NCBI GenBank assembly: GCA_903866275.1
Contig: CAIPMU010000014.1
Span: 186,001 to 250,000 of the forward strand
DNA: 64,000 nucleotides
Source of the DNA: Vampirovibrio chlorellavorus
GTDB lineage: Bacteria; Cyanobacteriota; Vampirovibrionia; Vampirovibrionales; Vampirovibrionaceae
Direction: 5' to 3'
Shown here one piece after another: positions 2,448 through 19,752 of this stretch. How positions within the stretch are numbered: position 1 is the first letter of the stretch; each line of letters starts with the position of its first letter. The translations under genes were made by a program, and so were the position numbers. The notes under the pieces were generated by a model. The model was not told where the DNA came from and made no database searches. It was given only the letters and a program-made list of their open reading frames with translations.

Positions 2448-3122
2448 ATGTCTTTGTTCATTACTGGAACCGGAACGGGTGTTGGCAAAACGGTGGTCAC
2501 TGCCGTGATTGCTGCATGGTTTCAAAGCCAGGGTAAATCGGTTTGTGTGTACAAGCCCATTCAAACTGGCTCTCCGGATGCGTCAAAACCAGAAGACCCT
2601 GCCAGCATTCAATCCTGGTTGGGGCAGGCTGTGGCAACGTATTGTTCCTATTGCTTTGCCGATCCGGTGGCGCCCTATGCGGCCGATCCTGAGCGCACTA
2701 TTCAGACCGGTAAAATGCTGCAAGATTTTAAAAACCTGCAAAAGCAATACGATATTGTGCTGGTGGAAGGTGCTGGCGGGGTCAGAGTGCCAGTTGCTCC
2801 CTATCTGGAGATGATTGATCTGATACGCATGTTTCAGCTGCCCGTCGTGGTGGTGGCTCATCCACAACTGGGCACCATTAATCACACCTTGCTGACGGTG
2901 GATGCACTATTGGCCCAGCGACTTGAGGTGAAAGGGGTCGTGATTTCTGATTATCCGGGCACGGCAGAGGTCCAGCGAGATCCGGCGATTCAGAGCTTGT
3001 TTTCAACCTTGGAGCCGTTTTTGCCCGTGCCGGTGTTGGGGACATTGCCTCACATTGAGCTGACATTGGAAGGCTTTCAGGAGGCCTCGGCGCAGCTCAG
3101 TCACTGGAAACTGCTGGAGTAG
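2448..3122 (+). CDS. bioD: Dethiobiotin synthetase
   Basis: ATP-dependent carboxylase that closes the ureido ring of dethiobiotin from 7,8-diaminopelargonate, the penultimate step of biotin synthesis. The product is 224 aa, the normal length. The P-loop TGTGTGVGKT is at residues 6-15, followed by YKPIQTGS and the VEGAGGVRVP block, both typical of BioD. The start at 2448 is preferred over an in-frame GTG at 2439 because GGAG lies 8 bases before the ATG and the protein then begins MSLFITGTG as in the family. No other bio genes are in the window, so the pathway genes appear scattered. Confidence 0.93.
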   Translation: MSLFITGTGTGVGKTVVTAVIAAWFQSQGKSVCVYKPIQTGSPDASKPEDPASIQSWLGQAVATYCSYCFADPVAPYAADPERTIQTGKMLQDFKNLQKQYDIVLVEGAGGVRVPVAPYLEMIDLIRMFQLPVVVVAHPQLGTINHTLLTVDALLAQRLEVKGVVISDYPGTAEVQRDPAIQSLFSTLEPFLPVPVLGTLPHIELTLEGFQEASAQLSHWKLLE

Positions 3123-3205
3123 TGTGGGTTTTTTAAAAGACGACGAGGCCTTTTGAGGTGCCATGATTTTAAATCATCGGAGGATGCGCAATTACCTCAG
3201 GCTTA

Positions 3206-3233
3206 TTGTTTTTATTTTATTAAGTGATTTAAT
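3206..3233 (+). promoter_or_regulatory. Candidate promoter of the 78-aa orphan gene
   Basis: AT-rich stretch with TTGTTT (3206-3211), a 16-base spacer and TTTAAT (3228-3233). The start would fall about 13 bases before the ATG at 3253, just in front of GAGGT (3240-3244). The match to consensus is moderate. Confidence 0.35.
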
Positions 3234-3252
3234 TGATGCGAGGTCGTATTGG

Positions 3253-10942: not shown

Positions 10943-11358
10943 TGGGCGATGTCCTGTGTTCAAGTGGTGTGCCGGGATTGGCTGCTTATGACGTTGGTTA
11001 CGACCGGGAAAGGCTATCTTGACGGTTTTGCCCGTCGAAATGGCATGCCTGAGGATTATCCCATCATACCCCCGTTAGGCTTGTCACTCAAGCTTCTCCC
11101 CTATTCAGGCCGCTTTTGCGATTGTAGCGGAGGGCTGCCGGGTCAGGCAATTCAATATGAATTTTTTGGAACAAATGATTTTGGAAAACCGAACATTTAT
11201 CCCTTTACCCAATTTTTAGCTTGCGTCACTATAAAGAGGCTGAGTTTGCTCTAAAAATGATGTGGCTTTGCGTTGAGTCAATTGGGGCTGGATTGAATAA
11301 TCAGCAAGATGTCGTGAACCGAATCCATACACACAGCGAGAAATGTTTTGAGGCCGCG
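10943..11358. other. 416-base intergenic region between the kinase and the WYL pair
   Basis: No convincing gene. The left half has ordinary GC and a weak GACGG/CCGTC hairpin near 11020-11037. The right part (about 11150-11250) is clearly more AT-rich and includes TATAAA at 11230-11235 without a good -35 partner. It presumably holds the divergent promoters of the kinase and the WYL operon. The WYL frame itself stays open to 11221, so part of this stretch could be coding if an upstream start is used. Confidence 0.4.
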
Positions 11359-12513
11359 ATGAATCATTTTCAGGATTTGAATATCACGAAAGCTCAGGAT
11401 GCCGGTGTGACGGCTATGATTGAGCAGGACTGGCCATCGGTTACCGTGGAGCTCAGCGAGTTGTTGAGTGAGCGGCAGGCTGGAGATGTTAAAACGCCTG
11501 CCAAGCGTGCGTTGAATAGCACGGCGTATCGTATTTTCAAGTTGCTGCAATGGCTCATTCAGTCTCCGTTGAGTGTAGAGGCCATGAATCAGAAGTTTTG
11601 TGCGGAACCGCGCATTGGCAAGCCGGTGTCAACTGATTCCATCTGGTTGTACATCAACACCCTCAAGGCGTTGGGATGCAATATTCGTCGGCCCAGCCCG
11701 CGTAATAACTTTCAGTATGTCATGCAAAGTCACCCGTTTGGGCTGAGTTTGAGTGAGCATCAGCTGGAAGCGCTTTCGCAGGCCAAGGCCTTTGCCCAGC
11801 AGCGATTCAGTCGAAAAGAAATGCAGGCCCTGGACGGCCTGTTGAAAAAAATTGTTGGCTATTCGGTCTGTGATAATCCGCAGGCCCTGATTGAACAGCT
11901 TTTTGCCCGGAGTCGCAGTTTTGATTATGGCGAGCTGAATCCTCATGTTGAGACGCTGGAAAGCGCGATTGATCAGCAGGTGTTGGTGCAGTTGTCCTAT
12001 TTGTCTCCCAAATACGGCGAGGAGCAGTTCCAGTTTTTGCCCGTGGCCCTGTTTTATGATCAGGGGGTGGTTTACCTGCGCGGTGAGCGTCCCGAGTTTG
12101 AACACCCCAGCACCTTGCGGGTGGATCGGCTGGTGCGGGTCAGTCCGGTTGCCGATCCCGTGGTTCGGGATCATTTACTGGGGCGGCAAGCGCTGAAGAC
12201 GGAGGTGCACTTACATATTCTGGCACCGTCGCCCGGTGCGTTTGATGGGTTTGGCCTGAGTGAAAACCAGGGTGTTTATCAGGAGCAGTTGCGGTGGGTC
12301 GAGCCGTCAACCGAGGATGCAGGGGAGGCACCCTATTATGAAGTCCGGCTGCAGGTGCGTGAGTTTTTCTTTGTGAAACAGCGCCTGTTGTTGTGTGGTT
12401 TGCCGTTCCGGGTTCTGGGACCGGAGCGCTTGCGGGACGAGTTGCGTCAGACTCTGGAATCCATGCGTCAGTTTTATCAAACCCCGACCGGAGAGGATCA
12501 GAATTATGGCTAG
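11359..12513 (+). CDS. WYL-domain transcriptional regulator, first of a tandem pair
   Basis: A 384-aa protein with an N-terminal winged-HTH region (about residues 53-105, with AYRIFKLLQWL and a YINTLKALGCNIRR recognition-helix-like segment), then a WYL-type Sm-like domain (about 200-280: VLVQLSYLSPKYGE, LPVALFYDQGVVYLRGE) and a C-terminal extension (WCX-like). WYL proteins are ligand-responsive DNA-binding regulators. The start at 11359 is chosen for GAGG five bases upstream; the frame is open to 11221 with other Met codons at 11257 and 11260 but no ribosome binding site. It overlaps the second WYL gene by 8 bases, so the two are co-translated. The paralogy is discussed as a finding. Confidence 0.8.
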   Translation: MNHFQDLNITKAQDAGVTAMIEQDWPSVTVELSELLSERQAGDVKTPAKRALNSTAYRIFKLLQWLIQSPLSVEAMNQKFCAEPRIGKPVSTDSIWLYINTLKALGCNIRRPSPRNNFQYVMQSHPFGLSLSEHQLEALSQAKAFAQQRFSRKEMQALDGLLKKIVGYSVCDNPQALIEQLFARSRSFDYGELNPHVETLESAIDQQVLVQLSYLSPKYGEEQFQFLPVALFYDQGVVYLRGERPEFEHPSTLRVDRLVRVSPVADPVVRDHLLGRQALKTEVHLHILAPSPGAFDGFGLSENQGVYQEQLRWVEPSTEDAGEAPYYEVRLQVREFFFVKQRLLLCGLPFRVLGPERLRDELRQTLESMRQFYQTPTGEDQNYG

Positions 12514-13447
12514 TTTACCTTGTGATGCACCCCTGAATATCAATGTTTCCGCCTATCGGGTGCTGTTTATTCTGCTGATGCTGGTGCGCTACCGGTGTCT
12601 GAACATGATGGAGCTGAACCGGCTGTTGTACGAAAATCCCCTGATTGGTCGCGTTTACAACTGCGAGACCCTCACCAAGTACATCAATACCTTGCGCGAG
12701 GTGGGTTGCGAGATCCCGCGTTCCTCCAGTCGAAACGATTATAGTTATGAGTTGAACAAAACGCCTTTTCCACTCGTGCTTGAACCGAAAGAGATGGCCG
12801 TGGCGGAGAAGCTGTTGAAACAACTGGAGAAACAGCCCAATGAGGAACTGTTCAAGGACTATCGCGATTTTCTGGATCAGCTCTCCTGGGCCGTGAAAGT
12901 GCCCCAGCAACCGACTGTGGAAACGTCTGAACCGGTTGGGGTGTTTCCGGTGTTGGAAATGCGTCGGGAGCAGATTCGGACGTATCGCCGGTATTGTCTG
13001 GATGCGTTTATGCTGGAAATTCAGTACCAGCAGACTGGTGGACTGAAGACCATTTTTCTGGAGCCGCATGAGGTGATTGAGCGTGAAAATCGTTTGTTGC
13101 TGCTGGGTTACGATCAGCAAACACAGCAACAGGTGAGTCTGGACATTGGCCGGATTGGCAAGCTAAAGCAACTGCCCTCCAAAAATCGTCGACTGGTGGC
13201 CCGAACGGTGGTGCTGTTTGCGTTGTATGGCCGGTTGGCGGCCAGTTACCGCCTGTATCCAGGCGAGAAGGTGGTCTATCGATCCACGCAGGAATTGCAT
13301 GTGAAAACGCTGGTTTCCGAGACCTCGGGCTTGATGGGGCGTTTGCTCAAGTACGGCGACGCCTGTCAGGTGCTTTCCCCGGAGAGCTTGCGAGAAACGA
13401 TGCGAGCGCATATTGATCAGCTGCTGGCCACGCTTCAGGAGGCCTAG
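12506..13447 (+). CDS. WYL-domain transcriptional regulator, second of a tandem pair
   Basis: A 313-aa protein beginning MASLPCDAP, start fixed by GGAGAGG about 9 bases upstream and by the 8-base overlap with the preceding gene. The N-terminal HTH (AYRVLFILLMLV, YINTLREVGCEIPR) aligns closely with that of its neighbour: both share the pattern YINTL-x-x-x-GC-x-I and a following RN-x-x-Y. A WYL-like domain follows (MLEIQYQQTGGLKTIFLEPHEVIERENRLLLLGYD) and then a C-terminal WCX-like tail. The two proteins probably form a heterodimer, by analogy with PafB/PafC. Targets are unknown. Confidence 0.78.
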   Translation: MASLPCDAPLNINVSAYRVLFILLMLVRYRCLNMMELNRLLYENPLIGRVYNCETLTKYINTLREVGCEIPRSSSRNDYSYELNKTPFPLVLEPKEMAVAEKLLKQLEKQPNEELFKDYRDFLDQLSWAVKVPQQPTVETSEPVGVFPVLEMRREQIRTYRRYCLDAFMLEIQYQQTGGLKTIFLEPHEVIERENRLLLLGYDQQTQQQVSLDIGRIGKLKQLPSKNRRLVARTVVLFALYGRLAASYRLYPGEKVVYRSTQELHVKTLVSETSGLMGRLLKYGDACQVLSPESLRETMRAHIDQLLATLQEA

Positions 13448-14028: not shown

Positions 14029-15163
14029 GTGGATTTTTCTGATATTAAACGCCGTTTGGAGGCTTTAACGCCCCGTTTGCAAGCGGCAAGGGGGTTTCTT
14101 TGACACCCCGGCCATTCGGGAACAAATTGCCAGTCTGGAGCACCAGAGTGCCCAGTCCGATTTCTGGAATGACGCGGATTTAGCCCAGCAAACCATGCAG
14201 ACGCTCAACGATCAGAAGGAGTCTGTGGCGCGGATGCAAGCCTGGGCGCAAGCGCACAGCGATTCGCAGGTCTTGCTGGAGCTGGCTCAGGAGGCTCAGG
14301 ATGAGACGGTTCTGGCGGAGTTGAATGCGGATCTCGATCGGCTGGAAGCGGAAATCGATTCGTGGGAGCTGCAAAATTTGCTCAGTGATGAGTACGATAA
14401 ATCCGATGTGATTATCACCATCACTGCCGGGGCAGGTGGCACTGATGCCCAGGACTGGGCGCAGATGCTGATGCGCATGTATCTGCGCTGGGCCGAGCAA
14501 AAAGGCTTTAAGCGGGATGTGCTGGACATGAACGAAGGCGAAGAGGCGGGGTTGAAAAGTGCTTCGATTCGGCTCACGGGCCGTTATGCCTATGGTTACG
14601 CCAAGGCGGAGCGCGGTGTGCATCGGCTGGTTCGAATTTCCCCGTTTAACGCTTCGGGCAAGCGGCAAACCAGCTTTGCTTCGCTGGAAGTCAGCCCGGT
14701 GGTCACCGGGGTGTCCGCTGCGGATATTGAAATCCGGCCGGAAGACATTGAACTGGATACCAGTCGTAGTGGCGGCGCGGGCGGGCAAAACGTAAACAAG
14801 GTGGAAACCGCGGTCCGCATTGTTCACAAACCCACGGGCATTGTGGTGCGCAGTCAGCAGGAGCGCAGCCAGCTCCAGAACCGGGAAATTTGTATGGATA
14901 TGCTGCGATCCAAGTTGCTCGCGCGCCGGATTGCTGAGCATGAGGCCAAGCTGGCCGCCTCTCGCGGCGAGGTGATGGATGTCAATTTCGGCAGCCAGAT
15001 TCGCTCGTATGTCTTTCATCCTTACAGCATGGTGAAAGATCACCGCACCAATGTGGAAACCGCTGATGTGACCGGCGTGATGGACGGCGATCTGGATCGC
15101 TTTATTGAAGCGGTTCTGCGCCAGCGACAGGCGCAAACGCTCGCGGCAGAGGCTGCTTCCTGA
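14029..15163 (+). CDS. prfB: Peptide chain release factor 2, with programmed +1 frameshift
   Basis: RF2 releases the chain at UGA and UAA codons. The gene is read in two frames: 24 codons from the GTG at 14029 to CTT (14098-14100), an in-frame TGA at 14101-14103, then a +1 shift continuing at GAC (14102) to the stop at 15163, about 377 aa in all. The GTG has TGAGG 8 bases upstream. The shifted part carries the RF2-specific SPF tripeptide ([13 protein letters not shown]) and the catalytic GGQ in [16 protein letters not shown]. The first 24 codons encode the expected RF2 N terminus ([13 protein letters not shown]), so this is not a broken gene. Autoregulation by RF2 level is the known logic. 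Confidence 0.95.
14089..14104 (+). promoter_or_regulatory. prfB: prfB recoding site (SD-like stimulator plus slippery CUU-UGA-C)
   Basis: The 16-base site reads AGGGGGTTTCTTTGAC. It has an internal Shine-Dalgarno-like AGGGGG, a 3-base spacer, the slippery CTT, the TGA stop and a following C that weakens termination. This is the canonical bacterial RF2 arrangement: low RF2 leaves UGA unread long enough for the tRNA-Leu to slip +1. Confidence 0.95.
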
Positions 15164-17906: not shown

Positions 17907-19499
17907 TTACCCTGCCAGCGCCTGCTGCCCCTGCTTCATCCGGTAGAGCTTGTCGATGCTCCGATATTGCAGGGCCTCGGCAATATGGCTGGCTTGCACG
18001 TTTTCGGAACCGGCTAAATCTGCAATGGTGCGACTCATGCGGAGCATGCGGTCAAAGGTGCGTGCGCTGAGGTGCATTTTCTGGATGGCCTTTTGCATGA
18101 GTGCCTGTCCGCCGTCATCCAATTGGCAGAACTGCTTGATTTGCTGAGGGTTCATCTCGGCGTTGCAATGAATTCTCATGCCTTCAAAACGCTGCGCCTG
18201 GATCTGGCGGGCCTGCGTGACGCGTTCGCGAATTTCCGCAGAGGTACTGGCGTTGGTGGGGCTGTGGATCTCCAGCAGTTCGCTGTCTTTCAGGCGAGGG
18301 ATTTCCAGATGGATGTCAATTCGGTCGAGGAGCGGGCCGGAGAGTCGCTGCAGGTATCGGGCGATTTGTAGCTCTCCGCAGCTGCACTGCTTTTGGGCGT
18401 CTCCCGCATAGCCGCAAGGGCAGGGGTTGAGTGCCGCCAGTAGCATAAATTTGGCGGGAAACGTCACACTCTGCTGGGCCCGACTGATCGTGACGACGCC
18501 GTCTTCCAGTGGTTGGCGCATGACTTCCAGCACATTGCGGGGAAACTCCACAAATTCATCCAGAAACAACACCCCGCGATGGGCTAGTGTAATTTCGCCG
18601 GGTTTGGGATGTGAGCCTCCGCCGGTGAGTCCGGCGCGGGTGGCCGAATGATGGGGCGAGCGAAAGGGACGATGCCGAATCAGGCTTTGCTGGCCTTGTC
18701 CTTTTTCGGTTTGTAGCAGCCCGGCGACGCTGTAAATGCGACTGACTTCCAGTACTTCCTGAAACGACAGCGGGGGCAAAATGCCCGCAAATGCCTTGGC
18801 CAGCATCGACTTCCCGCTGCCGGGTGGCCCTAGCATGAGCATGTTGTGCCCGCCCGCTGCGGCAATTTCCAGGGCGCGTTTGGCCACTTCCTGGCCTTTA
18901 ATATGCGAAAAATCGATGGGGCTGTGGTGAGGTTGCGTGGCTGCCGCCATTAGGGCTTCCCGATCCACGGGCTTTAAAAAGCTGGGCGGATGCATGAACA
19001 GCACCGGCAGCTCGTTCAAATGTTTCAGGCCATACACTTCAATGCCGTCAATCAGTGAGGCTTCCAGAACGTTTTCTTCCGGGACGACCAGCGCGGTAAA
19101 GCCTTCATGTTTGGCCATCATGGCCATTGAGAGCGCCCCATTAATGCGGCGCAGGGAACCTTCCAGCGAGACTTCCCCGATAAAGCAGGCTTTCTCCAGA
19201 AAGGGCGTAGGGGCCAGGCATTCGGAGGCCAACAGGATGGCCACGGACAGGGGGAGGTCAAAGCCGGTGCCCTCTTTTCGGAGATCGGCTGGGGCGAGAT
19301 TGATCACGACTTTTTTGAGTGGAAAGGCAAACCCACTATTTTTGATAGCCGCCTTAATCCGCTCTTTCGATTCAGTGACCCCGGTATCGGGCAGGCCAAC
19401 AATGGTCAGGCCTGGCAGGCCAGTGCTGATGTCCACCTCGACGACCACTTTGTGTGCATCCAGTCCATTCAGGGAGCCAGTGTAAACGGTTGAAATCAT
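17907..19499 (-). CDS. YifB/ComM-family magnesium chelatase-like AAA+ ATPase
   Basis: A 530-aa protein with the ComM layout: an N-terminal Lon-like (ChlI) domain (LNGLDAHKVVVEVDIS, GLPGLTIVGLPDTGVTESKERIKAAIKNSG region), an AAA+ module with Walker A MLGPPGSGKSMLAKA and Walker B LFLDEFVEF, and a C-terminal Mg-chelatase domain containing the CPCGYAG zinc-like cysteine motif. ComM homologues act as branch-migration helicases during natural transformation in characterised species. AAAGGG precedes the ATG by about 8 bases. Function in DNA uptake here is inference; other competence genes are not seen apart from the Tad pilus. Confidence 0.88.
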   Translation of the reverse strand: MISTVYTGSLNGLDAHKVVVEVDISTGLPGLTIVGLPDTGVTESKERIKAAIKNSGFAFPLKKVVINLAPADLRKEGTGFDLPLSVAILLASECLAPTPFLEKACFIGEVSLEGSLRRINGALSMAMMAKHEGFTALVVPEENVLEASLIDGIEVYGLKHLNELPVLFMHPPSFLKPVDREALMAAATQPHHSPIDFSHIKGQEVAKRALEIAAAGGHNMLMLGPPGSGKSMLAKAFAGILPPLSFQEVLEVSRIYSVAGLLQTEKGQGQQSLIRHRPFRSPHHSATRAGLTGGGSHPKPGEITLAHRGVLFLDEFVEFPRNVLEVMRQPLEDGVVTISRAQQSVTFPAKFMLLAALNPCPCGYAGDAQKQCSCGELQIARYLQRLSGPLLDRIDIHLEIPRLKDSELLEIHSPTNASTSAEIRERVTQARQIQAQRFEGMRIHCNAEMNPQQIKQFCQLDDGGQALMQKAIQKMHLSARTFDRMLRMSRTIADLAGSENVQASHIAEALQYRSIDKLYRMKQGQQALAG

Positions 19500-19752
19500 G
19501 GGTATTCCCTTTAATCATTCACGATTGCCTTGAGAAGTTTCTATTGTGGCGAAGAATGAGGCACCCAAAAAGGTATAAATATTCGGTTTTCGGAGTTGGT
19601 GCAATTTGAAGTCTGGTTTTGGGGGCGGATTGGGGTAGGCCTTTTTAGGTTCGGTTGATGTCTGCGGATGGCAAAGTAGGCTACAATAAGGAACAGGATG
19701 GAGCGCCTGCGGATTCAAACTGCAAGGCAGATAGGTTTAGGAGAGCGAGATT

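Follow-up and report, generated by a model that had tools for sequence, protein, structure and literature searches.

A co-inherited pair of paralogous WYL regulators in Vampirovibrio and a predicted operator shared with DNA-processing genes

Can two neighboring WYL regulators encoded by overlapping genes act as a single, two-subunit switch? PafBC is, to our knowledge, the sole WYL heterodimer encoded by two genes. The question arises again from a locus in a Vampirovibrio species that, among named relatives, is closest to Vampirovibrio sp. and V. chlorellavorus NCIMB 11383 (58% identity in the second gene product). The original prediction placed here two adjacent genes that overlap by 8 bases, encode proteins with matching helix-turn-helix (HTH) domains and WYL regions, and have a PafBC-like layout. 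Within the window (the whole stretch of 64,000 nucleotides that was analyzed, to which all coordinates refer), the genes, at the same coordinates as in that prediction, are:

11359..12513, + strand: gene A, HTH-WYL-WCX regulator of 384 amino acids, with the WYL Tyr and Arg-x-x-Arg kept; start uncertain.
12506..13447, + strand: gene B, paralogous HTH-WYL-WCX regulator of 313 amino acids, with a degenerate WYL pocket.
12506..12513, + strand: 8-base overlap of A and B, from the window sequence and the start candidates of relatives.

The first ~45 residues of gene A lack conservation, so that its called start is insecure; in-frame ATGs are present at 11257, 11260 and 11359, and the conserved core begins at ~11500. 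An overlap of 8 bases, again judged from start candidates, is also present in relatives L061-L064, and it suggests that translation of the two genes may be coupled. As is typical of HTH-WYL-WCX regulators, the pair carries WYL and WCX domains. For gene A, the Pfam WYL match scores 32.2 bits (E 1.1e-7; cut-off 21.8), and the WCX match, at 21.3 bits, falls slightly below its cut-off of 23.9, while gene B exceeds the WCX cut-off (28 bits) and is below that for WYL (13.6 bits). Among relatives, WYL matches (E <= 0.01) are present in 10/15 A and 10/15 B proteins, and WCX matches in 6/15 and 12/15, respectively. The Pfam scan of A and B gave no HTH match; the structure models show helices and wing-like strands at the N-terminus, and their Foldseek matches span whole WYL regulators. 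The predicted likeness of the two HTH domains is seen by BLASTP (E 1e-13, 33% identity over 86 residues), and it increased rather than disappeared when profiles were aligned (HH-align probability 99.6%, E 5.6e-25). Alignment extends to the effector halves (probability 98.5%, E 2.9e-15). This similarity is well above chance, and A and B are ancient paralogues.

The two genes co-occur in relatives, as the original prediction supposed, and lie side by side in 16 of the 18 genomes of the order. Both prfB and comM, which are neighbors of the pair, are also missing from G015, one of the two genomes that lack it (the other is G006). Thus, its absence from G015 is most likely an assembly gap, and a true loss there was rejected. 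Across the class (382 genomes), the A profile has matches in 285 and the B profile in 296, counts that overlap because each profile also detects the other subunit. Most of these matches are in family f6, which we take to be Gastranaerophilaceae, with others in f1-f3 and f10-f13. Several f6 genomes have a B match and no detectable A; in genus g71 of that family, several genomes have a B match, a weak A match or none, and a LexA-like ORF of ~210 amino acids. When the A profile was run on 292 genomes of the phylum, a set that included the class itself, just 10 weak matches (best E 2.9e-12) fell outside the class. No A/B pair was found in viral contigs.

In 36 neighborhoods, chosen for having profile matches, A and B are always adjacent, on the same strand and with A first, although a contig end cuts B in L072 and A is split in L068 and L142. 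No other gene is common to all 36; conserved neighbors were consequently rejected as a clue to function, since only the pair itself is constant. The ORFs that flank it in the window, read by eye, look like glycine-cleavage, pth-like and kinase-like genes and prfB. The latter appears to have the usual programmed frameshift (AGGGGGTTTCTTTGAC, about 14085-14105) ahead of the ORF at 14195. When 34 A and 34 B proteins, taken from loci with two full ORFs and labeled by position, were placed in a tree, a single branch parted all A from all B (support 99/90; 100% of 200 bootstrap trees). This single split, together with the constant adjacency, indicates one old tandem duplication whose two copies have since been passed on together as a unit able to move. 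As placed in these genomes, the pair is a free-standing core locus.

The pockets of the two proteins have diverged. Residues R211 and R214 of PafB are essential for binding single-stranded (ss) DNA, and mutation of the arginine pair of PafC leaves ssDNA binding intact, according to extracts of PMC11804915. The corresponding positions were located in A by motif (L-R-x-D-R) and in B by the column of a profile alignment. Within the order, the first position of A is R in 15/15 and the second R/K in 15/15; outside the order R is retained in 11/19 and 15/19. Among B proteins, R is present in 1/15 and 5/15 within the order, and outside it in 0/21 and 3/21, counts in which one A row, L152, is included with B. 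As aligned, A keeps the Arg-x-x-Arg that corresponds to the ssDNA-binding pair of PafB, and B has lost it. The original prediction, which held that the typical pocket residues were incomplete in both copies, stands for B and fails for A in this respect. AlphaFold models built from 8-row alignments (pLDDT 78 and 75, pTM 0.49 and 0.41) match DriD and PafBC first in Foldseek: DriD is the top match of A (E 6e-10), with PafBC third, and PafBC is the top match of B (E 3e-11). The TM-scores are low (0.2-0.4), so the domain arrangement is not readable from these models. PafB and PafC also head the profile search with B; the profile matches of A and B to PafBC cover the WYL region only.

An upstream search for a shared operator, which the original prediction had suggested, found the core AAAACCGAANATTT both at A and at DNA-processing genes. 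The predicted promoter elements of the pair are:

11185..11206, + strand: operator upstream of A, AAAACCGAACATTT (11185-11198) plus a degenerate right arm; exact motif.
11227..11232, + strand: -10-like hexamer CACTAT, +42 from the operator start, from a four-genome alignment and promoter-group phasing.

The operator has the form AAAACCGAANATTT-N2-CGGTTT, a strong core with a weak inverted arm. Upstream of A, four Vampirovibrio genomes have TTTGGAAAAnCGAAnATTTATCnnTTTAC in common within a region that is otherwise barely alignable, and their -10-like hexamer is CAACAT/CAATAT in sister species. The core recurs upstream of A in f1 and f2, with variants in f12/f13; overall, the operator is present in most relatives in two families and in some in two more. 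When 350 bases upstream of A were scored with a leave-one-out position weight matrix (PWM) against 200 shuffles, no shuffle scored as high as the window operator, and 11 of 16 loci of the order exceeded all 200. One of four f12/f13 loci (L137, f12) did so as well. As many as 1/200 and 7/200 shuffles scored as high as L138 and L136, respectively, and the scores of L071, L072 and L139 were not significant in this test. No convincing operator was found upstream of A in f3 (3 loci) or in f6/f10/f11 (16 loci). Between A and a divergent AnmK-like gene, f6 loci L144-L148 and L155 have a strongly conserved stretch of intergenic sequence in which CTTAATGAA is repeated.

All of the significant sites face A in the same orientation. 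In 11 of 25 promoter groups (43 sites), TANNNT lies +41/42 from where the motif starts, whereas an offset pair has it in 1.4 groups on average; at +16 there is an enrichment of the inverted arm CGGTTT. The operator would then span about -54 to -33, just upstream of and overlapping the -35 position. A -10 box at a fixed distance suggests the role of an activator; operator position and phasing together point to activation. The A proteins of loci with the motif have W, C or G at one position of the recognition helix in every case. At loci lacking the motif, A usually has R, T or S there, although L141 and some others depart from this; the correlation is confounded by descent.

Most of the WYL regulators that have been studied are homodimers. 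A and B could likewise be separate homodimeric regulators of different ligands that merely remain neighbors, as their differing pockets and the homodimeric state of DriD (in extracts of PMC11804915) would allow. However, the genes are adjacent in 36/36 neighborhoods while other genes change, there is only one A/B split, and the operator is a single site that is asymmetric, one of its halves being strong and the other weak. Two independent homodimers consequently seem improbable to us.

If the pair acts as one activator, its targets may be sought at other copies of the operator. A count of the exact 14-mer over 18 genomes gave 53 sites, versus 10 for the reversed pattern; in the five Vampirovibrio genomes the numbers are 28 versus 0. 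The 53 sites comprise 7 pair promoters, 4 f3 matches and 42 that were examined (41 in L193-L232 and the comM site of the window). Six of the 42 lie inside long ORFs and were excluded from promoter counts, leaving 36. DNA genes are downstream of 11 of these: comM 3, dprA 2, SNase 3, and recA, a UvrD-type helicase and cas9d 1 each. A micro-ORF of 42-52 codons near rplI, found in five Vampirovibrio genomes, follows 6/36 sites. An M23 peptidase follows 3/36 (Pfam was run on one), an M48 peptidase 1/36 and a small lipoprotein-like ORF 1/36, and 14/36 have no clear target gene. Features of this predicted regulon include:

19577..19590, - strand: exact operator match, the second in the window, ahead of comM/yifB.
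17907..19499, - strand: comM/yifB, Mg-chelatase-like AAA ATPase and predicted target; Pfam and TIGR00368.
Near 2970-3250 of loci L195, L199, L202, L206 and L212: the micro-ORF.

ComM has a role in transformation. The window gene matches Pfam Mg_chelatase (6.3e-94) and TIGR00368 (628 bits, cut-off 362). The comM promoter was judged in 8/16 loci: the site is present in G000, G014, G016 (2 mismatches) and G010, a variant is present in G012, and no operator site was found at comM of G011, G009 or G013. In the metagenome-assembled genome G017, the operator lies ~80 bases upstream of a Cas9d gene (L215:3-2942, - strand; NF049971 802 bits, cut-off 375). The micro-ORF product has the pattern M-x-x-x-EF-x-x-GL-x-E, and its gene is accompanied by two operator copies, some of which are back to back. 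Rfam searches of 10 motif-bearing loci, near rplI and elsewhere, returned just three tRNAs. At recA, an exact site is present in only 1/15 loci (G010), with 8 of the 15 read in the correct promoter orientation and further recA promoters judged by eye; recA was thus rejected as a core target. A looser scan (<=3 mismatches, -10 included) gave 82 matches versus 46 in the control, which is near noise. Twenty of its places were fetched; new among them were recQ in G000, a further SNase, csm1 (two genomes) and additional sites of the M23 and lipoprotein-like kinds. These candidate sites are weaker when taken singly.

It could be proposed that the pair is the lineage's SOS substitute, in place of LexA: f6 genomes, in which the LexA DNA-binding domain mostly has a weak match or none, keep the pair, and the recA site of G010 has a variant in G012, which has no LexA match. 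However, LexA matches are strong in G000 and most f1/f2 genomes, and the operator is absent from the f6 pair promoters. In addition, lexA promoters and Vampirovibrio recA promoters have, by eye, a separate box of the ATAGAA-N-TTCGA type, and 11 lexA loci gave no match to the new operator with fewer than 2 mismatches. Since lexA and recA of the window genus carry this other box, the pair is not simply an SOS substitute; that role was rejected for the window genus and may apply in the LexA-poor f6 genomes, but for the lineage we consider it very improbable. The ATAGAA-N-TTCGA sequence is itself the likely LexA box of the lineage (L254-L264; recA loci L237 and L239-L242).

The operator might instead be the site of some other regulator, with the WYL pair merely one of its targets. 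In both f3 and f6 the pair is kept but A has no motif upstream, and many sites are without a DNA-related target. Nevertheless, no other promoter is marked as consistently as that of the pair, over two orders and in a single orientation, and the pair is the sole regulon member to encode a candidate DNA-binding activator that is present in most genomes. LexA is excluded as the other regulator by its own box and by its absence from G009, G012 and G013. Control by another regulator is a possibility that we take seriously and yet hold to be rather unlikely.

We favor, with confidence about evenly divided, an obligate two-subunit WYL activator. A and B, made from an overlapping operon, would join as a heterodimer and bind AAAACCGAANATTT-N2-CGGTTT at their own promoter, resulting in autoregulation. 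The activator would also turn on a small set of genes that serve recombination, defence and the uptake of DNA: comM, dprA, the SNase-type nuclease and the conserved micro-ORF, and, in some genomes, recA, the UvrD-type helicase, recQ, cas9d and csm1. A, with its PafB-like Arg-x-x-Arg, would be the sensing half, partnered by a B whose pocket is dead. The probable signal would be ssDNA, which could be derived from damage, transforming DNA or phage. Counting against this model are the families f3 and f6, which retain the pair while lacking the motif, the several f6 genomes with B and no detectable A, the single exact site among 15 recA loci, the near-noise level of the looser scan, the incomplete retention of the A arginines outside the order, and the 14 targetless sites together with the five that precede peptidases or the lipoprotein-like ORF. 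A broader claim, that this is an independent second heterodimeric WYL switch with one ssDNA-sensing subunit, serving predatory relatives of the cyanobacteria as a genome-wide foreign-DNA alarm that co-activates comM, dprA, the nuclease, recQ, cas9d and csm1 and is distinct from SOS, is offered only tentatively and is doubtful as a whole.

If the model is true, non-photosynthetic relatives of the cyanobacteria would have as part of their core a second two-gene WYL pair, and DNA uptake, recombination and CRISPR-Cas would be linked under one candidate signal. Because one ssDNA pocket would be live and the other dead, what asymmetry does in WYL regulators would be directly testable, and the predicted operator supplies ready binding and reporter tests.

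A literature search found no report of a Vampirovibrio WYL pair or of an operator for one; known systems, though, offer several comparisons. Like LexA, the pair is predicted to govern DNA-processing genes, but LexA has a separate gene and a separate box in the same genomes. CapW and BrxR, WYL regulators of defence islands, share the WYL fold and the link to defence genes. They are reported to adjoin the systems that they control (PMC9122588, PMC9122589), unlike the free-standing A/B pair. DriD of Caulobacter is an HTH-WYL-WCX activator gated by ssDNA, as is predicted for the pair, but it is a homodimer made from one gene (extracts of PMC11804915). The closest parallel is PafBC, present in mycobacteria and other actinobacteria, which is also formed by two adjacent HTH-WYL-WCX paralogues and has the RxxR pocket seen here in A. 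The RxxR is present in both PafB and PafC, according to those same extracts, and only in A here, so that A and B do not both have the arginine pair in their WYL domains. Nor, from ORFs read by eye, were Pup-proteasome genes, with which PafBC is associated, seen beside the window pair. The A/B operator overlaps -35, whereas PafBC promoters have a -26 element. The PafBC-like reading of the original prediction has gained from the asymmetric arginines, from PafBC and DriD as the nearest structures and from an operator shared with DNA-processing genes, and has lost in the placement of that operator. The pair probably works like PafBC, which does not imply membership of the PafBC family.
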